A stretch of 27,531 nucleotides of DNA from a virus (IMGVR_UViG_3300008266_000374:1-27531), one strand, 5' to 3'. Shown: positions 2,243 to 25,739, numbered from the stretch's first letter. Notes: generated by a model not told the origin, from the sequence alone. Translations and numbers: made by a program.

Positions 2243-2428
2243 TTACATTGAGATCATTGTTCCTGCCACTATTCCTAATGAAAATACAACCAGACAGAGG
2301 ATGATCTCGCCAGCAAGACGATCCTTCCTCTCAATATCGAAGTCCTTTTCGATCTTGAACATTTGATCCTTTAGCATCTGGATCTCCTGGTTCTTCCTGT
2401 CAATGACATACTCATGGCGCTGCTTCAT
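2243..2428 (-). CDS. Tail-anchored coiled-coil membrane protein, 61 aa
   Basis: The N-terminal half (residues about 5-38) is highly charged and heptad-like (NQEIQMLKDQMFKIEKDF), followed directly by one hydrophobic segment at residues about 40-60 that ends the protein. This is a C-terminally anchored membrane protein with a cytoplasmic coiled coil. Its ATG overlaps the stop of the metallopeptidase-like gene upstream (ATGA), so the two are made together. A membrane tether for a partner protein is an inference. Confidence 0.6.
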   Translation of the reverse strand: MKQRHEYVIDRKNQEIQMLKDQMFKIEKDFDIERKDRLAGEIILCLVVFSLGIVAGTMISM

Positions 2429-2871
2429 GCCATCCCTCCGACTATCTTCCTGCTCTCGTCAATGAGCTGGCTGTAGATATCCTCGTCCTTCATGCCGCTG
2501 TACCTGACGTTGTAGGACATGCCTTCGTTGACCGGCATGCCGACCTGCTTGATGGTGTCGTTCACCTTGTAGTCGCAGGCCATACCCCATATCAGGACGT
2601 TCTTGCCAGACGCACGGAGGCAGTGCTCGTCAAGGACATGCAATGCCTCGTGCATGACTAGGCTATCTAGTTGCTCGTCACTGAGCAGGACTGTGTGGCT
2701 TGGGTTGAAGAACATATTGGTTCCATCGGTTGCTGCGACTGCATACCTGTCAGTCATAACAACCCGCATGGATCGCAATGTCTTACCAATGCCTGTGAAC
2801 TTGCGTGTCAGCCGCTTCATCGACTCAGACACTCTGTCAGCCTGCATCTTGACTGGAATCAATCCGTCCAT
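2425..2871 (-). CDS. Stand-alone zinc metallopeptidase-like domain protein (DUF2201_N type), 148 aa
   Basis: The diagnostic stretch is HEALHVLDEH at residues 74-83, preceded by a substrate-strand-like ATDGTNMFFNP and followed by ACDYKVNDTI at about 98-107. This order (ATDG..(Y/F)(F/Y)NP, HExxH, A.DY.(I/V)ND) is that of the putative metallopeptidase domain found N-terminal to a VWA-like domain in longer bacterial proteins. Here the VWA part is absent and the protein stops about 40 residues after the motif. Zinc binding by H74 and H78 with catalytic E75 is expected from the HExxH motif. Whether it cuts a host or phage protein is unknown. It is coupled to the gene below by ATGA and overlaps the gene above by 13 nt. 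Confidence 0.7.
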   Translation of the reverse strand: MDGLIPVKMQADRVSESMKRLTRKFTGIGKTLRSMRVVMTDRYAVAATDGTNMFFNPSHTVLLSDEQLDSLVMHEALHVLDEHCLRASGKNVLIWGMACDYKVNDTIKQVGMPVNEGMSYNVRYSGMKDEDIYSQLIDESRKIVGGMA

Positions 2872-3890: not shown

Positions 3891-4214
3891 TCAATCAATC
3901 TTTGATGTACCAGTTTCAACAAATGCAATGGCCGAGTTGAACAGATCATCAGCCAATGCCCTGTTATCATTGCAATGGAATTCTATGAACTCCTCAATCA
4001 ACCGCATCTTTCCGTAGTGCTCCTCCGATTTCATAAAGAATGTCAGCCGCTGCATTGCAGGGAACAGGTGCTTGAGCCTGTCACTGGCCTGCTGCCATGC
4101 AATGCTAGTCGGCGGATTGGATCGCTGAATGTCCTGGTTTTTATCTATCATCGAAAGGATGGTTGATTCCCAGAACCGAAGTTCTTCCATTGATGTGTCT
4201 TCATAGTCAATCAT
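3891..4214 (-). CDS. Unknown helical phage protein, 107 aa
   Basis: Begins MIDYEDTSMEELRFWESTILSM. It appears mostly helical, with conserved-looking tryptophans and a central QASDRLKHLFPAMQRLTFF. A ribosome site AGGAGA lies about 6 nt upstream. The regulatory palindrome at 4238-4254 lies 24 bp before this gene's start, inside the tail of the previous gene. No recognised domain. Confidence 0.6.
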   Translation of the reverse strand: MIDYEDTSMEELRFWESTILSMIDKNQDIQRSNPPTSIAWQQASDRLKHLFPAMQRLTFFMKSEEHYGKMRLIEEFIEFHCNDNRALADDLFNSAIAFVETGTSKID

Positions 4215-4223
4215 CGTCTTCTC

Positions 4224-4502
4224 CTATGCTGCTTCCGACATAACCGAGTTATGTTCATCGTTGCTTCGATGCCAAATTGCCTCGTCTTTCCTTGCATAGC
4301 CACCCTTTATGGCGTCTTCCATGGTTAGATAGGATGCCTGTACTCTGTACTCATCAACCCTTATAGTGCTGAATGCGTTGTTCCGCTCTTTCAAGCGAAG
4401 CAAGTTCTGCGATGCTTCCTCCCTTGATCTTAGGAATTCTCCATCTGAAATCCATGATGAATAATCCGTGTAGTACTGTTCGACCCAGTATATGATCGGC
4501 AT
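4224..4502 (-). CDS. Unknown phage protein, 92 aa
   Basis: Begins MPIIYWVEQYYTDYSSWISDGE. The N-terminal part is aromatic-rich, followed by a charged helix and a small C-terminal segment. The last codons (HNSVMSEAA) are written over the palindrome ACATAACCGAGTTATGT, so the site and the coding end coincide. AAGGAGAACCAAG precedes the ATG. Function unknown. Confidence 0.6.
   Translation of the reverse strand: MPIIYWVEQYYTDYSSWISDGEFLRSREEASQNLLRLKERNNAFSTIRVDEYRVQASYLTMEDAIKGGYARKDEAIWHRSNDEHNSVMSEAA
4238..4254. promoter_or_regulatory. 17-bp palindrome, copy 1
   Basis: ACATAACCGAGTTATGT, overlapping the last codons of the 4224-4502 gene, 24 bp before the next gene's start. Confidence 0.85.
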
Positions 4503-4514
4503 CTTGGTTCTCCT

Positions 4515-5438
4515 TTACAGGGTGCTAGGGGTGATGTTCTCGTTCACAAACAGATCCTCGATCCACTCACTAGCCTGAGAGGGATCGTCGGACACCATCT
4601 CCTCGACATAGGTCTCATCCTCGTAGCAGTAGGAGAGCAACGCGCTAGCCTTCCACGGCGCATCAAGTACCCACTGGTCAAGGTTGTTGTTGAGCCACGA
4701 GTTGTAGGCAGCCTTGAGGATCGGGCGGATACTCTCCTTGCTGTCAACAACCTTGTTCTTGACGGTGACTGACTTGACTCGACCGCTGGGGTACGAGGTA
4801 GCCATATCCCAATCAAGGTAGTCATTGCCAAGGCCGGAGTAGCCATAGCCACGATAGGACTTCGTTGCACCTTGGAAGCCATGCATGGAAGGCGTCCACG
4901 CATAGGTGTTGGACAGCCACGCATCATTGAAGGTGACGCCAGCGGATCGATTGATGATGACTGCCTCGCCGGAGCCGGTCATGAAGCCGAACTTGTTGGT
5001 GTTGCCGATCAGATCGCCAATGAACGCCTGATAGGCGGGCGAGAGGATCAGGTCTGGCTGGTAGGACAGGGCAGGCTGAATGACATTGGCGATGAAGTGC
5101 CACGTATCAGACTTGCTGCGATCATTGTCATTGCCCGATGAGAGGATGCCGTTATGCGCCATCCAGATGTTCTTGGTGACGTAGTAGGGGTGGCAATTCT
5201 CGAGGTCAATGTCGCCATGGGTCTGCATACGGGCATGCCAGATGCACTCCCGACCTTCGGCATACTGGCGATAGAACTCGACGAACTCCGCGGCATTGGT
5301 GGGCAGTGCTTTCTTGACAACAACATTGCCAGCTGTAGCGAACATGATGCCAATGCCATCACGATTCTTGCCATACACATCCTTGAGGAAGGCGTCGGTG
5401 AAATGGGTGGTTTCTTTCTGGTGTACCAAAAGACACAT
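4515..5438 (-). CDS. Class-II (Ntn-type) glutamine amidotransferase, 307 aa
   Basis: The protein starts MCLLVHQKE, so removal of Met1 exposes Cys2, the catalytic nucleophile of class-II glutamine amidotransferases. Further family motifs appear in order: DGIGIMFA at about 27-34, WHAR at 67-70 with a following T.H, NCHPY at 81-85, and MAHNGIL at 93-99. These correspond to the glutamine-binding and oxyanion regions of GATase domains, which hydrolyse glutamine to supply ammonia. The N-terminal 180 residues are that domain; the C-terminal part (about 190-307) has a linker with RGYGYSGLGNDYLD and an acidic end, unlike known synthetases. The partner that uses the ammonia is most likely the amidoligase just upstream, 50 nt away. 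GGAGAG precedes the ATG. An N-terminal hydrolase of another substrate is the alternative. Confidence 0.85.
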   Translation of the reverse strand: MCLLVHQKETTHFTDAFLKDVYGKNRDGIGIMFATAGNVVVKKALPTNAAEFVEFYRQYAEGRECIWHARMQTHGDIDLENCHPYYVTKNIWMAHNGILSSGNDNDRSKSDTWHFIANVIQPALSYQPDLILSPAYQAFIGDLIGNTNKFGFMTGSGEAVIINRSAGVTFNDAWLSNTYAWTPSMHGFQGATKSYRGYGYSGLGNDYLDWDMATSYPSGRVKSVTVKNKVVDSKESIRPILKAAYNSWLNNNLDQWVLDAPWKASALLSYCYEDETYVEEMVSDDPSQASEWIEDLFVNENITPSTL

Positions 5439-5469
5439 GATGATTACTCTCCGTGGTTGAAATGAATCG

Positions 5470-5486
5470 ACATAACTCGGTTATGA
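5470..5486. promoter_or_regulatory. 17-bp palindrome, copy 2
   Basis: ACATAACTCGGTTATGA, one base off the consensus and with its centre inverted (TCG). It lies between the amidoligase stop and the glutamine amidotransferase ribosome site. Confidence 0.8.
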
Positions 5487-5488
5487 AA

Positions 5489-6961
5489 CTAGGCGGCTTC
5501 TGCGTTGGCGCCTGCCCGTCCACGCAATCGACTGGTGACGTAGGAGCGGAGGATCTTGGTCTCATCCGCCATGTTGGTGGCACAGAAGGTGAGGAACGAT
5601 CCTGCCGATAGTTGGTTGACGCTAGTGACTGCGGGGCGACAGAACTCGATGACCGCATGGCAGAACTCAATGGCTGCAATGACAGCCTCGTACTTGAGGG
5701 AGCCGCGGAAGATGCGGAACTCGATGGTCTTGGAGTTGGTCAGGTTGACTGCCTCGTATCGGTCGAAACTGGTATGGATACCATTGCCGATCTTCTTTTC
5801 CTTGATGTTGCAGTAACCAGTGCTATAGCGGCGAGCCAGAGCACGAATGAACCACTCGTTGTCTGGGCTATTGACGAAGGCAACGATCTTCTGGATCTGC
5901 AGCGGGGTGAGGCCACTGCGACTGACATGGACATGCAGGCCGCACGTCGAGGTCGCATGGCTACGCATACCCTTGGTTAATCCAGGCTGAGTGAGGAACT
6001 TGAACAGCTCCCGATGTGCTGGCAGAGAAAGGGGCTGGGTGATCATCTCGAAGCCATGGGACAAGGAGCCGTCGTTCTCGAAGAACATCATCCGGCCTTC
6101 CTTGTTGACTACATCGTTGACAGCCTTCGCACAGGCTGAGCGACTCTCATCGCCGCACTCGACCTCGAGTTCGACACCGATGAATCGCATGTGCTTGGCA
6201 GTCCATGTGTCGTGCTGCAGACGAACAAGGGCTCTGGACGAATGGTAGCCGCTGATGACGCCGTCGTCGTCGTCACTGTCTGACCCGTAGTCCTCGTGGA
6301 CATACTCATCAAGCCGAGCATCAAAGCGGAAATTTTCGTTATGCCGGCTGATGCGGACCCTCTCGCCGTTCTCGTCTAGGGCTTCTCGGACGTCGTCGTT
6401 GCTGATGTACAGCTCCTCGTATTCAGACCATGTGTAGTTCTCATCGCAGCAAGTTTCACAGATGAGGCGCGAGTCAACCTCGCGAACGTCTCCGTCGGCG
6501 CACATGGAGCCACATTCCGGGCACTCGTAGGCGCAGAGTGTTTCAGTCAGGTACTCGCGGATCTGCCCTGCGTCGAGGTAGACGTCGGCAGACTGATGCC
6601 ACTCGTCAATCTGCGAGGAGCCGATGTGGTACGGCTTATTGTAGAACTCGCACTCAAGCAATATGAGCGGCATGCGGTATGTGGCTTCGTTAGCAGCCCA
6701 CTCCATTGGCTTGATGAGTCGGCTCTTGGCGACAGAGATATCGATTGCCAGATGAGAGCGGTCTAGTTGCTCTTGGCGGCCAAATTTATGCGGATATTCC
6801 GCAATGATCTTGCGCAAGATGGCTATGGCGGAGTCGTAGTTATGGTCAAGCAACTTGGCCCAGCTGCTGATGAAGGACAGGCGAGACTGCTCAAGATCGG
6901 GAGGCAGCGGGTCTGCTGCAAGGAGGATACGGCGTAGTCGATTTGACATGAGAATGCTCAT
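5489..6961 (-). CDS. Amidoligase (COOH-NH2 ligase) with N-terminal zinc ribbon, 490 aa
   Basis: The C-terminal half carries the glutamine-synthetase-like amidoligase motifs in order: GVELEVE at 262-268 (metal-binding glutamates), ENDGSL at 295-300 then FEMITQPL at 304-311, CGLHVHVS at 340-347, an RYEAVNL at 401-407 and TIEFRIFRG at 412-420. This family couples ATP use to amide-bond formation between a carboxyl and an amino group. A zinc ribbon lies at about 147-172 (CPEC...C, CETCC), and a very acidic linker at 226-234. The first 140 residues are helical and unrecognised. AGGAG stands 6 nt before the ATG at 6961. A palindrome lies on each side of the gene. The neighbouring glutamine amidotransferase could supply ammonia or process a glutamyl substrate. 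The actual substrate is unknown. Confidence 0.85.
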   Translation of the reverse strand: MSILMSNRLRRILLAADPLPPDLEQSRLSFISSWAKLLDHNYDSAIAILRKIIAEYPHKFGRQEQLDRSHLAIDISVAKSRLIKPMEWAANEATYRMPLILLECEFYNKPYHIGSSQIDEWHQSADVYLDAGQIREYLTETLCAYECPECGSMCADGDVREVDSRLICETCCDENYTWSEYEELYISNDDVREALDENGERVRISRHNENFRFDARLDEYVHEDYGSDSDDDDGVISGYHSSRALVRLQHDTWTAKHMRFIGVELEVECGDESRSACAKAVNDVVNKEGRMMFFENDGSLSHGFEMITQPLSLPAHRELFKFLTQPGLTKGMRSHATSTCGLHVHVSRSGLTPLQIQKIVAFVNSPDNEWFIRALARRYSTGYCNIKEKKIGNGIHTSFDRYEAVNLTNSKTIEFRIFRGSLKYEAVIAAIEFCHAVIEFCRPAVTSVNQLSAGSFLTFCATNMADETKILRSYVTSRLRGRAGANAEAA

Positions 6962-6986
6962 CTTTAACTCCTGGTTTTGTTGTTGG

Positions 6987-7003
6987 ACATAACTGAGTTA
7001 TGT
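6987..7003. promoter_or_regulatory. 17-bp palindrome, copy 3
   Basis: ACATAACTGAGTTATGT, between the 7015-7248 gene's stop and the amidoligase start. Confidence 0.85.
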
Positions 7004-7014
7004 CGGATGGATAA

Positions 7015-7248
7015 TCACTGACGGCAACGGTCTTTCACCCGACCGTTATTGAGAAGGGTCGGCACGACACCCATGTCGAGTGCCATGTCATACAGGCGCA
7101 TGGCATAAGCCTTGTCGCCCACCACGATGACCTGCCCCTTGACCTTCAAGGCCCAGCCGGATCGACCATTGGCTGATGCGCGGGACATGACACTCGCAGT
7201 GGATGAGCGAGGCAGTAGGGTATTGAGGATGGATCGGTCGAGGTTCAT
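7015..7248 (-). CDS. Unknown basic small protein, 77 aa, upstream of the amidoligase
   Basis: Begins MNLDRSILNTLLPRSS. The N-terminal half is serine/arginine-rich and looks flexible (STASVMSRASANGRSG), followed by a small beta-containing part (WALKVKGQVIVVGDKAYAMRLYDMALDMG). GGGAG precedes the ATG, which overlaps the upstream stop (ATGA). Because it lies directly before the amidoligase, it is a candidate partner or substrate, but nothing in the sequence proves this. Function unknown. Confidence 0.6.
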   Translation of the reverse strand: MNLDRSILNTLLPRSSTASVMSRASANGRSGWALKVKGQVIVVGDKAYAMRLYDMALDMGVVPTLLNNGRVKDRCRQ

Positions 7249-7514
7249 GGCGTTACTCCCGCAGCAAGAATGGCTGAGTCGATCTTGCCGCCGTCTGCGT
7301 AGTGGATGGTGATGGGGCTGTCAGTCGCGGATTCATACATCCCGACAATCCAGTTGTCGCTGTCGATGTCGTCAACTCCACAGCCACTGTTATCAGTGAC
7401 CATGAGGTAGTGCTCGCCGTCGTTGATCGACCGCATGTAGGCAGTGCATCCACCGCCTGTGGTGTCTAGGGAGAACCCCAGCTCACGAAGTCTTGTAGTG
7501 GTGTCAGTACTCAT
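7245..7514 (-). CDS. Unknown small phage protein, 89 aa
   Basis: The ATG at 7514 is chosen because GAGGAGG lies about 10 nt before it; a TTG six codons further upstream has no site. The protein begins MSTDTTTRLRELGFSLD and looks like a small all-beta domain (CTAYMRSINDGEHYLMVTDNSG, then DNWIVGMYESATDSPITIHY). Glycine and acidic residues are frequent. It overlaps the upstream gene by 11 nt and the downstream one by 4 nt. Not recognised. Confidence 0.6.
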   Translation of the reverse strand: MSTDTTTRLRELGFSLDTTGGGCTAYMRSINDGEHYLMVTDNSGCGVDDIDSDNWIVGMYESATDSPITIHYADGGKIDSAILAAGVTP

Positions 7515-7740
7515 CTGAGTCTTCCTCCTCAAGGCTGGTGGTGTAAACGAAAACGTAATAGGTCGGACTCACCTTGACGAAGGTGCCGACCGACTGCCTA
7601 GTGCCGTCGGGCATGAGGCGGTACTGCATGTCGGAGGTGTACTGGATGAACTCGGCATAGTCCTTGACATGGATTTCAGTGGCCCAGTGCTGGGTCTCCC
7701 CAACGGGTAATGTGTCTACGCACAGAATGGTGATGAACAT
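7504..7740 (-). CDS. Unknown small phage protein, 78 aa, first clear gene of the leftward operon
   Basis: AAGGAG sits 7 nt before the ATG at 7740 (MFITILCVDTLPVGE). The reading frame is open to 7851, but that extension is coded across a perfect hairpin and has no ribosome site. The protein has a beta-rich body (YRLMPDGTRQSVGTFVKVSPTYYVFVYTTS) and an acidic tail (LEEEDSDEY), a pattern seen in many small early phage proteins. It is the first gene with good translation signals after the long leader. Function unknown. Confidence 0.65.
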   Translation of the reverse strand: MFITILCVDTLPVGETQHWATEIHVKDYAEFIQYTSDMQYRLMPDGTRQSVGTFVKVSPTYYVFVYTTSLEEEDSDEY

Positions 7741-7769
7741 GTGATGCTCCTTGTCTAGTGGATACCCAC

Positions 7770-7797
7770 GGCAGGCCTGTCTCCCAACAGGCCTGCC
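7770..7797. promoter_or_regulatory. Perfect 11-bp-stem hairpin in the operon leader
   Basis: Arms GGCAGGCCTGT and ACAGGCCTGCC enclose a 6-nt loop. It lies 30 nt before the first clear gene of the leftward operon (start at 7740). No T-run follows on either strand, so it is not a typical terminator. It may be an RNA stability or processing element, or a protein-binding site. Confidence 0.6.
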
Positions 7798-7860
7798 TAG
7801 GCTATTCACTCGGGTTGTACAAGCGAGATAGCGATGTATGCGGATACTCACGGCATGGCG

Positions 7861-7877
7861 ACATAACCGAGTTATGT
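7861..7877. promoter_or_regulatory. 17-bp palindrome, copy 4
   Basis: ACATAACCGAGTTATGT, extended by a G/C pair to GACATAACCGAGTTATGTC. In the leader, about 120 bp before the first clear leftward gene. Confidence 0.85.
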
Positions 7878-7965
7878 CGTCATTCAGCCGCTAACGCCGC
7901 AGGACGTACGTTGCCCGTCCGTACCGGCTACGGAGAGAGACGCCTAGGTGGTATTGCATACAGGC

Positions 7966-8157
7966 TTAACATCCGCATCCCTGCCTGATTCCACAGGGGT
8001 AGTGATCCATGCCGCCATACATGGCATACAGACACAGCGTGTCTTTCTGCACTAGCCGCACATGATCGTGTACTTGGATCTGCCCATCGAGGGGTTGTCT
8101 GATGCCTTTTTGTTGTTGTATGCACCAACACCGACTTGTCGCGTCTTCACTCCACAT
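7966..8157 (-). CDS. Possible small cysteine-rich protein in the leader, 63 aa (doubtful)
   Basis: An open frame from an ATG at 8157 would encode a peptide whose second half looks protein-like (VHDHVRLVQKDTLCLY, then YPCGIRQGCGC at the end). Cysteines and histidines could bind metal. Against it: only a GGGTGGG-like stretch precedes the ATG, an in-frame stop lies closely upstream, and it sits within the untranslated leader of the leftward transcript. It may be a small real gene, a decayed one, or chance. Confidence 0.25.
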   Translation of the reverse strand: MWSEDATSRCWCIQQQKGIRQPLDGQIQVHDHVRLVQKDTLCLYAMYGGMDHYPCGIRQGCGC

Positions 8158-8306
8158 GGGTGCAGCCCACCCATCAGCGCATCATTGCCCGAGCGAGGTT
8201 GTCATCCTCGCCCCGATCCTCTTCCAGACCGTTTCATCACTTCCACAGAGTAGCCGCCATATCTAGCCGCGCCACTACGATGATTCCGTGAATCCCGCCA
8301 TCGTCG

Positions 8307-8323
8307 ACATAACCGAGTTATGT
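8307..8323. promoter_or_regulatory. 17-bp palindrome, copy 5
   Basis: ACATAACCGAGTTATGT, about 45 bp downstream of the predicted start of the leftward promoter, a place where a bound protein would block elongation. Confidence 0.85.
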
Positions 8324-8365
8324 TGAAACCTAGGTCGCAACGCCGGTCTATCGATTGGCCCGAGC

Positions 8366-8394
8366 ATTATGACATATGTATATACCTATGTCAA
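8366..8394 (-). promoter_or_regulatory. Leftward early promoter
   Basis: On the minus strand, TTGACA (8394-8389) is followed by a 17-bp spacer and CATAAT (8371-8366), a near-consensus sigma70 promoter with a predicted start near 8359. Positions 8371-8392 form a 22-bp palindrome with one mismatched pair, exactly filling the promoter, which looks like an operator. The 17-bp palindrome at 8404-8420 is centred about 53 bp upstream of the start. Confidence 0.75.
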
Positions 8395-8403
8395 GTCCCC
8401 TGG

Positions 8404-8420
8404 ACATAACCGAGTTATGT
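8404..8420. promoter_or_regulatory. 17-bp palindrome, copy 6
   Basis: ACATAACCGAGTTATGT, 9 bp upstream of the -35 box of the leftward promoter; centre about -53. It also lies just upstream of the possible terS -10 box. Confidence 0.85.
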
Positions 8421-8490
8421 TGGATGGCAGGAATAAGGGGAGTTGCCTATACTCGAGGATCACCTGGAATTGGTAATGAGGATATGACGT

Positions 8491-9039
8491 ATGGCAAGCA
8501 ATGAGCCAGTGACTAATGGACTGAAGCCACTGACACCTAAGGCCCTGAAATTCTGCGAACTTGTGGCTAAAGGGCAACGAGTGTCTGAAGCCTACTGTAA
8601 TTCGTATGAGGTACAATATAACACTAAGAAGGCGTCTATACATGCAGCCGCCGGTCGCCTCATGGGTGACCCGAGAGTGCGTCGGCAGATCGAAAGGCTG
8701 AAGGAGAAGGACGCTGCGGCGGTGTTCCAGCAGGCGGTGGGCCTGCGGCAGTGGACGCTTGACCGTCTGAAGGACGAGGCTACGGACAAGGAGAACCCGC
8801 CAGCGGCTAGGGTGACGGCCCTGGGGCTACTGGCTAGGGCGTCTAGGCTGATCGAGAGCGGCAGTCAGCAGAGCGTTAACGTGAACGTGGCGACCGTCAA
8901 TCGAAGTGCGTCTGAGATCGAGCGTGAGCTGCTCGACCGTCTAGCTTCTCTGACGACCGACAGTCATGCTGAAAACGATGCGGTGGATGGGGAGATCCTG
9001 CCTGCAGATCCAGGTGATGATGACGCTGAGCCGACATAA
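8491..9039 (+). CDS. terS: Terminase small subunit, 182 aa
   Basis: LTPKALKFCELVAKGQRVSEAY at about residues 13-35 is the typical N-terminal helix-turn-helix entry of phage small terminases, which bind the packaging site on phage DNA. A further helical region (GRLMGDPRVRRQIERLKEKD) and a central oligomerisation part follow, then an acidic C-terminal tail (DPGDDDAEPT), a usual contact to the large subunit. Length is normal. GAGG precedes the ATG at modest distance. The stop codon lies inside the palindrome at 9034-9050. The large subunit follows on the same strand, separated by an inverted gene. Confidence 0.85.
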   Translation: MASNEPVTNGLKPLTPKALKFCELVAKGQRVSEAYCNSYEVQYNTKKASIHAAAGRLMGDPRVRRQIERLKEKDAAAVFQQAVGLRQWTLDRLKDEATDKENPPAARVTALGLLARASRLIESGSQQSVNVNVATVNRSASEIERELLDRLASLTTDSHAENDAVDGEILPADPGDDDAEPT

Positions 9040-9050
9040 CTGAGTTATGT
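9034..9050. promoter_or_regulatory. 17-bp palindrome, copy 7
   Basis: ACATAACTGAGTTATGT, containing the terS stop codon and just before the terminator at 9057-9093. Confidence 0.85.
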
Positions 9051-9056
9051 TGACGC

Positions 9057-9093
9057 AAAAAAAAACACCCTAGGTGGTTAGCCTAGGGTGTTT
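9057..9093 (-). terminator. Strong leftward intrinsic terminator
   Basis: A 12-bp stem (AAACACCCTAGG and CCTAGGGTGTTT) with a 7-nt loop is followed on the minus strand by nine T's (A-run 9057-9065). It would stop leftward transcription from the inverted gene at 9123-9611 before it enters terS antisense. On the plus strand only TTT follows, so rightward termination after terS would be weaker. Confidence 0.9.
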
Positions 9094-9122
9094 CGGTGGT
9101 GACCATGTATGCGTCGTGGTGG

Positions 9123-9611
9123 TTACTTCAGACTATTGATCGTCGTAGTCATCGCAGCGGTAATGCGATCGCGGATGGCGATTGCGTCCGCCTTTGGCTT
9201 ACTGCCGATGAAAGCCACGACAGCAGCGACCATATCGGTCGCTGTCATCGATTGCAAGGTAGCGGGTTGCGTTACCTTGCTGCTCTTTGTGGCTGGTACC
9301 TTAGCAGTCTCTGCTGCTTTGCTACCCTTGCCGCGCTTCTTTGTGCCGCGATTGGTTAGTACCAACCCTAGCGGCTTAACGATATATTTAATCAAAACCG
9401 CATTAGTGCGATTGCGGTAGCCTTTGGCGGTTTCCTTATCGGAGAATTTAGCGTCTATAGCAGCGTTAACCGCTATACGGCGCTCCCTAAACTGCTCCGC
9501 AGTAGTGCAGCCACTGTACAGCGCTTGCACTTCCTTAGTGACATCACCTGTAGCCTTACCCTCTGATCGGATGGCGGTTACAAGTTTGCTTACGTTTATT
9601 GTCTTATTCAT
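9123..9611 (-). CDS. Unknown 162-aa protein of an inverted gene between terS and terL
   Basis: Begins MNKTINVSKLVTAIRSEGKATG. An N-terminal helical domain (about 1-85) is joined through a basic, lysine-rich linker (TNRGTKKRGKGSKAAETAK) to a small C-terminal helical domain (about 117-162). GGGAG stands 9 nt before the ATG. The gene is inverted relative to its neighbours and has its own promoter (9697-9724) and terminator, the layout of a moron. Its promoter carries the same upstream palindrome as the main leftward promoter, so autoregulation or shared control is possible. The basic linker suits DNA binding, but I see no clear helix-turn-helix. Function unknown. Confidence 0.75.
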   Translation of the reverse strand: MNKTINVSKLVTAIRSEGKATGDVTKEVQALYSGCTTAEQFRERRIAVNAAIDAKFSDKETAKGYRNRTNAVLIKYIVKPLGLVLTNRGTKKRGKGSKAAETAKVPATKSSKVTQPATLQSMTATDMVAAVVAFIGSKPKADAIAIRDRITAAMTTTINSLK

Positions 9612-9671
9612 GCGTCATTACTCCCAGAATGGTTGTGGTGACGCATACATGGCCAGATTTTTAAAGAGCGC

Positions 9672-9690
9672 GCCGGTAGTGAATACCGGC
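9672..9690 (-). promoter_or_regulatory. Hairpin at the start of the inverted gene's transcript
   Basis: Arms GCCGGTA and TACCGGC with a 5-nt loop begin at about the predicted transcription start (near 9690) of the promoter at 9697-9724. It would fold at the 5' end of the RNA, consistent with an RNA-stabilising structure; an operator is the alternative. Confidence 0.55.
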
Positions 9691-9696
9691 ATCACA

Positions 9697-9724
9697 AGTA
9701 TATACATATGGCCGCTAGTGTCAA
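9697..9724 (-). promoter_or_regulatory. Leftward promoter of the inverted gene
   Basis: Minus-strand TTGACA (9724-9719), a 16-bp spacer and TATACT (9702-9697). The palindrome at 9735-9751 is centred about 53 bp upstream of the predicted start, the same distance as at the 8366-8394 promoter. A 13-mer, CATATGTATATAC, is shared by both promoters in opposite orientations. Confidence 0.75.
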
Positions 9725-9734
9725 CACCAATCCG

Positions 9735-9751
9735 ACATAACCCAGTTATGT
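9735..9751. promoter_or_regulatory. 17-bp palindrome, copy 8
   Basis: ACATAACCCAGTTATGT, 10 bp upstream of the -35 box of the inverted gene's promoter; centre about -53, matching copy 6. Confidence 0.85.
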
Positions 9752-24788: not shown

Positions 24789-25739
24789 ATGCTCCTAACG
24801 CTACTTCAAAGTGGCGGGACTGGGGGCAATGTTATTGTCAACGCCACCGGCCTGTCCGCTACAGGTCAGGTTGGAACTGTTACTGTACTGAATGACTTCA
24901 CGGTGCAGGTCACCGGAGTCTCGGCCACAGGAGCCGTAGGTACTGTTACAGCCCTGACTGGGGCCACGGTATTCCCGACTGGCGTATCTGCCACGGGCGC
25001 TGTTGGCTCGGTCACTGTCGATACTGGCGGCGGCTCTGTTACCGTTAATGCGACAGGCGTTGCCGGTACGGGTCAGATCGGCACGGTCACGGTATCACTT
25101 GGGGCAACGATCTCCGTCACAGGAGTTGCAGCTACCGGCCTTGTTGGCACCTCAACGATCCTTACCGGGGCCACGATTGTCCCCACAGGGGTATCTGCCA
25201 CAGGCTTCATTGGCGCCCCGACGATTATTACCAATGCCATATTCTCCGTTACCGGAGTGTCGGCAACTGGCTCGATAGGCACTGTCAGCGTTGCTATAGA
25301 CGCCTCTGCGGTTGTTACAGGCGTTTCTGCGACAGGCGCTGTGGGCAGCACCACAGTGGTCACTGGGGCGCTTATAGAGGCTCTGGGGCTGTCTGCCACA
25401 GGCTCTATCGGCGATGTATCGGTTATCGGCGTTGCCAATGTATCGGTTACCGGCGTATCTGCAACGGGCGACCTAGGCACCGTCTCTGTTGGCATTGGCA
25501 AGGATGTCCCTGTCACCGGGGTGTCGGCTGCAGGCAGCATTGGTTCTGTTGCGGTGATAGGTGAGGCAGTGGTGACACCGACTGGCGTTTCAGCCACCGG
25601 GTTTATTGCTTCTGTGAATGTTTGGAGTATTATTAATGACACCCAGGTTTCGTCCTGGGTGGCTGTGCCGAACAGCCAAACGAGTGCTTGGACTGAAATA
25701 GGCAACTCGCAAGCTCCAAACTGGAAGTTAATTAACTGA
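24789..25739 (+). CDS. Repeat virion protein with twelve 22-residue units, 316 aa
   Basis: Residues 20-285 are twelve copies of a 22-residue unit beginning TGVSATG.(V/I)G(T/S)V(T/S)V; the third is 25 residues because of a 3-residue insertion. The regular length and valine/glycine/alanine make-up suggest a beta-solenoid or extended fibrous shaft. The last 31 residues are three shorter units with tryptophans (SSWVAVPNS, SAWTEIGNS, NWKLIN), which may be the attachment point. Position before the fibre gene suggests a fibre or fibre linker. Repeat proteins of this type occur in aquatic phages; function unknown. Confidence 0.8.
   Translation: MLLTLLQSGGTGGNVIVNATGLSATGQVGTVTVLNDFTVQVTGVSATGAVGTVTALTGATVFPTGVSATGAVGSVTVDTGGGSVTVNATGVAGTGQIGTVTVSLGATISVTGVAATGLVGTSTILTGATIVPTGVSATGFIGAPTIITNAIFSVTGVSATGSIGTVSVAIDASAVVTGVSATGAVGSTTVVTGALIEALGLSATGSIGDVSVIGVANVSVTGVSATGDLGTVSVGIGKDVPVTGVSAAGSIGSVAVIGEAVVTPTGVSATGFIASVNVWSIINDTQVSSWVAVPNSQTSAWTEIGNSQAPNWKLIN
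24846..25643 (+). repeat. Twelve 66-bp imperfect coding repeats
   Basis: The units encode the 22-residue TGVSATG repeats in frame; one has a 9-bp insertion. Nucleotide identity between units is highest around the TGVSATG codons, enough to allow copy-number change by recombination. Confidence 0.9.

Follow-up and report, generated by a model that had tools for sequence, protein, structure and literature searches.

The amidoligase gene and the class-II (Ntn) glutamine amidotransferase (GATase) gene that follows it form a near-obligate module with a fixed gene order. The GATase gene was found directly downstream and on the same strand in 172 of 178 distinct amidoligase loci with enough sequence, taken from viral contigs, phage records and bacterial genomes, and no downstream GATase was detected in the other six amidoligase relatives. 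The count covers amidoligases of at least 250 aa with distinct C-termini and at least 1.2 kb of downstream sequence; five further loci are located at contig ends and stand outside the 178. A GATase was adjacent to the amidoligase in 73/77 cases from bacterial genomes and in 99/101 cases from viruses, the viral pool being enriched for pairs as it was obtained in part by scanning with the GATase. In the set of 80 loci found with the amidoligase profile only (L100-L179), just L106 and L174 show no GATase, and in both the sequence ends there. Viral contigs were scanned with each protein family separately, and phage records and bacterial genomes were also searched. Alignment-based scans were needed, as a scan of the viral contigs with a single protein returned two weak loci only. 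The samples used for adjacency and context are the closest relatives, the best 80 loci per scan, rather than an unbiased census of PF12224. The intergenic gap between the two genes is mostly 3-60 nt, or there is a short overlap. The Pfam entry PF12224 itself mentions amidotransferase-like neighbours.

The two genes are also inherited together. Pairwise distances of the amidoligases and the GATases correlate at 0.89 over 76 pairs, a value that was reached in 0 of 1000 permutations (permutation maximum 0.16). As a control for simple co-divergence with the phage, the comparison was repeated in 28 loci that also hold a terminase. The correlation between amidoligase and GATase was 0.96, while that of either one with the terminase was 0.76-0.77, indicating that the pair genes travel together more tightly than either does with the terminase. 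In phages and mobile elements alike, and whether the hosts are Gram-negative or Gram-positive, the two genes are thus passed on nearly as one unit, which argues for a substrate that host cells commonly contain. Annotation of amidoligases in phages goes back more than ten years, with no substrate or reaction assigned to them. The pair represents their minimal form: apart from its two genes, no biosynthetic gene is consistently linked in phages. This, together with its wide inheritance as a unit, makes it a tractable model for phage amidoligase function.

The pair described here is found in a 27.5-kb stretch of DNA, the whole of which was analysed and is referred to as the window. It is an HTVC023P/HTVC027P-like podovirus by its portal protein (44-45% identity) and is probably a fragment of a virus genome. 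Its nearest long relative is a 58-kb record (G001) with a portal identity of 82%, which carries both pair genes, at 50% and 67% identity. Table 1 lists the features of the locus. Both genes are on the minus strand, with the GATase 50 nt downstream of the amidoligase, and the pair sits in an early-type leftward operon. The coordinates and motifs that the first-pass annotation had given for both genes were exact. GS-like and Ntn folds are predicted for the two proteins, and the residues expected to act in catalysis hardly vary among 76 pairs, which supports the functionally linked two-gene amide-forming system in an early-type operon that had been proposed there. Neither a missing fold nor a loss of conserved catalytic residues, either of which would have spoken against that proposal, was found.

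Table 1. Features of the amidoligase-GATase locus and of the surrounding early region, in window coordinates. Counts refer to nonredundant pairs.
Feature	Position	Strand	Remarks
Class-II (Ntn) GATase gene	4515..5438	-	307 aa
MAHNGIL, residues 93-99	5142..5162	-	N96 in 75/76, G97 in 76/76
HAR, residues 68-70	5229..5237	-	H68 and R70 in 76/76
Cys2, predicted N-terminal nucleophile after Met removal	5433..5435	-	C in 76/76
Amidoligase gene, predicted GS fold	5489..6961	-	490 aa
TIEFRIFRG, residues 412-420 (E414, R416)	5702..5728	-	invariant in 76/76
CGLHVHVS, residues 340-347 (H343, H345)	5921..5944	-	both His invariant in 76/76
GVELEVE, residues 262-268 (E264, E266)	6158..6178	-	invariant in 76/76
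Zinc-ribbon segment, C147/C150/C168/C171	6449..6523	-	each Cys kept in 74-76 of 76
Palindrome	4239..4253		25 nt upstream of ORF 3891-4214 (-)
Palindrome	5471..5485		33 nt upstream of GATase start
Palindrome	6988..7002		27 nt upstream of amidoligase start
Palindrome	7862..7876		upstream of ORF 7504-7851 (-)
Palindrome	8308..8322		downstream of leftward promoter
Palindrome	8405..8419		10 bp upstream of -35 box, leftward early promoter
Palindrome	9035..9049		end of ORF 8491-9039
Palindrome	9736..9750		11 bp upstream of -35 box, promoter of ORF 9123-9611
Sigma70-like promoter TTGACA-17-CATAAT, TG before -10	8366..8394	-	consensus match only, 11/12
Sigma70-like promoter of ORF 9123-9611, TTGACA-16-TATACT	9697..9724	-	consensus match only, 11/12

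By family, predicted fold and conserved residues, the 490-aa protein is a putative GS-fold amidoligase for which ATP-dependent ligation is predicted. It matches Amidoligase_2 (PF12224) with 31.3 bits, above the curated cut-off of 22, and, in PHROGs, phrog_16683 (4e-36) and phrog_2443, 'amidoligase enzyme' (3e-15). A helical N-terminal region (residues 1-141) is followed by a zinc ribbon with short beta repeats (143-222), a GS-like catalytic domain (260-440) and C-terminal helices. The AlphaFold model (single chain, alignment of 61 sequences, mean pLDDT 89) was compared with solved structures using Foldseek and matched GS (5.5e-6, probability 1.00), GmaS (4.4e-4) and Dop (6.6e-4), as well as PafA and YbdK. 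TM-scores to solved folds were only 0.2-0.5, low values of the kind expected between distant relatives that carry additional domains. When the amidoligase alignment was run as a profile against the PDB, no ligase came up; the only matches, to UHRF1 and MCM, were weak and fell on zinc-finger-like regions. The alignments behind this model and that of the GATase were built without rows from GenBank phage records. Residues E264, E266, E305, H343, H345, R378, N406, E414 and R416 are constant in all 76 nonredundant pairs and, by analogy, E264 and E266 of the GVELEVE motif may be the metal-binding ExE of GS-like enzymes.

The zinc ribbon had been described as an addition to the amidoligase of the window. 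The conservation of its cysteines (Table 1) showed instead that it is a family feature of nearly the whole clade. Some Ruminococcus relatives have several zinc ribbons, Firmicute relatives carry more than one, and a few of these proteins give weak LIM matches. The viral loci L005 and L010 have neither a downstream GATase nor a zinc ribbon, but several amidoligases that were scored as ribbon-negative by pattern do have a GATase, and the tie between ribbon and GATase is a lead only.

The 307-aa protein was assigned on the same kinds of evidence as a class-II Ntn GATase with predicted glutaminase activity. It has 29.1 bits to GATase_4 (PF13230; curated cut-off 23), a profile that is matched by 53 of the 61 GATase family members at E 0.01. 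The Ntn glutaminase domain occupies residues 1 to about 195, and a low-confidence linker (196-230) connects it to a helical C-terminal domain (234-298). In a profile search of the PDB, GlmS came first (4.2e-9). The AlphaFold model (single chain, alignment of 56 sequences, mean pLDDT 86) matched the GlmS glutaminase domain (4.3e-6), EgtC (2.4e-5) and also PurF in Foldseek. Residues C2, H68, R70, G97 and D111 are constant in the 76 pairs and N96 varies once. We take R70 to be the counterpart of the arginine of GlmS that binds the carboxylate of glutamine, and by analogy with the same enzyme N96-G97 would form the oxyanion hole. The position aligned to Trp74 of GlmS, the gate residue of that enzyme, is mostly Met (65/76 pairs).

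Glutamine-dependent amide synthesis is the simplest reading for a GS-fold ligase accompanied by a class-II GATase. On balance, we favor the view that the two proteins are produced early in infection and constitute a self-contained system for amide formation that is fed by glutamine. In such a system, Cys2 of the GATase would attack a gamma-glutamyl amide, most simply that of free glutamine, to release ammonia. The amidoligase, using ATP and Mg, would activate a carboxylate as an acyl phosphate, and the ammonia from the GATase, or a different amine, would then be coupled to it. A macromolecular substrate is suggested by the zinc ribbon and the beta repeats; this region could dock a protein of the host or a molecule linked to a nucleotide or to the envelope, and perhaps the GATase as well. 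We infer the requirement for the GATase, because GS-fold enzymes can use free ammonia, and likewise the enzymatic activity of the pair, the direction of nitrogen flow, a physical complex and the macromolecular substrate. A role in the virion was set aside, since the operon is of the early type and the pair is present on elements without virions. These two points speak indirectly for a host or regulatory molecule as the possible target, as suggested in the first-pass annotation.

The main rival to glutamine-fed amide synthesis, which we regard as rather doubtful, is a ligase combined with a trimming enzyme. Here an amine would be tagged or protected by the amidoligase with a gamma-glutamyl group or a different amino acid, and an EgtC-like Ntn hydrolase would take this group off again or process an intermediate. 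The structures closest to the GATase model include EgtC, a gamma-glutamyl hydrolase, which fits trimming about equally well. Those closest to the amidoligase model include GmaS, YbdK and Dop/PafA, enzymes that handle gamma-glutamyl or carboxylate-amine chemistry, and the Met found at the gate position of GlmS points in the same direction. However, the best matches of the GATase in both sequence and structure are GlmS glutaminase domains. The invariant or nearly invariant R70, N96-G97 and D111 would also speak for binding of glutamine, but EgtC-type enzymes bind gamma-glutamyl groups too and the residues shared with EgtC and GlmS are common to both enzyme types, so they do not discriminate.

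Phage amidoligase-GATase pairs were known before, and the window adds another one. Both genes were reported in the Methylophilales OM43 phages MEP401 and MEP402, with Marvin cited in the same work (PMC10580990). In these phages the genes are adjacent, in the same order and early, before the primase/helicase genes, with about 32% identity to the window for the GATase and 30-33% for the amidoligase, but they belong to a different virus family (Zobellviridae). The available part of that report gives the presence of the genes without adjacency statistics, co-inheritance or a zinc ribbon. Podoviridae sp. ctgrD200 (MW202733) has an amidoligase (43% identity) immediately followed by a GATase (36%) that is annotated as hypothetical; unlike the window, its genome is described with an RNA polymerase, a DNA polymerase and methyltransferases. 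Mycobacteriophage Marvin gp105-gp106 and relatives also combine a Cys-rich N-terminus and an amidoligase with a following class-II GATase, although identity to the window pair is only about 28-30%. In many records of Marvin-related Mycobacterium phages the amidoligase itself is annotated as 'glutamine amidotransferase domain protein', while the class-II GATase of Marvin is the next gene, gp106. The present analysis adds counts for the near-obligate adjacency and shows co-inheritance in excess of the phage-background control. It further adds the clade-wide distribution of the zinc ribbon, the occurrence of the two genes as a stand-alone form, and their presence on mobile elements.

An amidoligase and a GATase also occur in the early module of LUZ24/tf/RIO-1/phiEco32-type phages (PMC3890496, PMC5498523), where the cassette adds an ATP-grasp protein, a second COOH-NH2 ligase and a GGCT protein. 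No ATP-grasp, GGCT/AIG2 or COOH-NH2_lig gene was found among the 61 scanned genes of G001, nor was an ATP-grasp, GGCT or second COOH-NH2 ligase gene found among the tested early ORFs of the window, which is a fragment. The system of the window is therefore set apart from the LUZ24-like and RIO-1-like cassettes, and its assignment to the larger 'peptidoglycan modification cassette' was rejected. It is likewise distinct from a longer set of amide-chemistry genes in one region of Stenotrophomonas phage StenR_269 (L004 4199-12357). The genes are annotated as GGCT-like, class-II GATase, glutamine-synthetase-like, ATP-grasp-like ('D-alanine-D-alanine ligase'), amidoligase and a second GATase.

These comparisons bear on modification of the envelope, in which D-Glu or mDAP carboxylates of peptidoglycan precursors would be amidated or extended, in the manner of MurT-GatD or AsnB/LtsA, with altered sensitivity to lysis or to superinfection. 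Such a function was proposed for related phage genes in PMC10580990, PMC5498523 and PMC11318856; the first and last of these, citing Iyer et al. 2009, suggested a cell-wall change against superinfection, or secondary metabolites. GATase-dependent amidation of peptidoglycan carboxylates is established for MurT-GatD (PMC3267633). Nevertheless, the remaining genes of the proposed cassette are those missing from G001, no cell-wall gene was found to recur beside the pair in the viral loci, and a zinc ribbon would be unexpected on an enzyme that modifies precursors. We consider this reading unlikely.

The bacterial copies suggest another possibility, in which a defence or regulatory protein of the host would be modified by the pair at the entry of a phage or mobilizable element. 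In a set dominated by Ruminococcus and its kin, a relaxase, resolvase or integrase homologue is located at most 8 kb away in 60 of 80 bacterial loci, and DUF960 is present in 62/80 (phmmer), usually directly upstream of the amidoligase. Among 78 viral loci, no third gene was found to recur in most, and the commonest immediate upstream neighbor was a DUF932 protein (11 loci). Mobilizable elements have little in common with phages beyond entering a cell and becoming established in it. In addition, the genes are early and the zinc ribbon implies a macromolecular target. All of this is circumstantial, however; PADLOC gave no match and a literature search found no paper with both 'amidoligase' and 'anti-defense', so that counter-defence seems improbable. 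We put forward with low confidence a broader proposal, that the zinc-ribbon amidoligase and the GATase constitute a distinct two-gene system of macromolecule modification (amidation or tagging) on unrelated lytic phages and mobilizable elements, whose target during establishment would be a host macromolecule, such as a protein of defence or regulation. Production of a secondary metabolite or modification of a DNA base is very unlikely, as no linked biosynthetic, transport or base-modification genes were found in G001 or recurrently in the other loci, even though peptide-like or secondary metabolites have been proposed as products of GS-fold amidoligases (PMC10580990, citing earlier work); a DNA-base modification pathway was set aside for want of partner genes.

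The sets on mobile elements of Ruminococcus and other Clostridia resemble the window in having a zinc-ribbon amidoligase directly followed by a class-II GATase. They differ in their identity (about 30%), a shorter N-terminus, several LIM-like ribbons, a preceding DUF960 gene and a nearby relaxase or resolvase. Relaxase and MobC-like genes lie close to the triplet DUF960-amidoligase-GATase in L283, L310 and similar Ruminococcus loci, and in Firmicute elements DUF960 might serve as a third partner or be a substrate. A search of plasmids gave only six weak matches, on C. difficile and mycobacterial plasmids.

The first-pass annotation had also noticed a palindrome before each gene of the pair and suggested that expression of the two could be tuned separately from the rest of the operon. 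The palindromes are real. The sequence CATAAC-N3-GTTATG occurs in eight copies in the window, all within 4239-9750, and a scan of both strands allowing up to three mismatches gave 18 matches versus 0.73 expected by chance. Separate tuning was not supported, since the element also precedes other genes and both strong minus-strand promoters (8394-8366 and 9724-9697, the two best promoter-like sites on that strand). The former is, from its sequence, the candidate promoter of the leftward operon with the pair. A simpler reading is that the palindrome marks a shared phage-wide early regulon. In sister phages the palindromes are again found before both pair genes; the arms are kept and the core has changed almost uniformly, a pattern that resembles an array of operators changing in step with its regulator. 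Arrays like that of the window are present in L096 (6505-15942) and L098 (4362-18919), with 7-9 copies per phage, and these frequently lie 10-20 bp in front of a -35 box or immediately ahead of a ribosome-binding site. A tie between this palindrome and the pair in all phages was rejected, because CATAAC-N3-GTTATG is confined to close kin of the window. In a few other phages with the pair, the corresponding places hold repeated palindromes of unrelated sequence.

The ORF at 9123-9611 (-) encodes a 162-aa protein and has its own promoter-like site and a terminator. Homologues were found only in loci with the CATAAC palindrome array and in none of 313 loci without it, which makes this protein a candidate regulator, although shared ancestry alone could explain the co-occurrence. 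Two other proteins of the window deserve mention. That encoded at 2425-2871 (-) has a DUF2201_N putative metallopeptidase domain (Pfam, 5e-17) and is labeled as an HNH endonuclease in PHROGs (phrog_1314); members of this family are present in 7 of the 78 loci with the pair. The other one, encoded at 24789-25739 (+) in the tail region, is repetitive and contains many TGVSATGxVGTV-type repeats.
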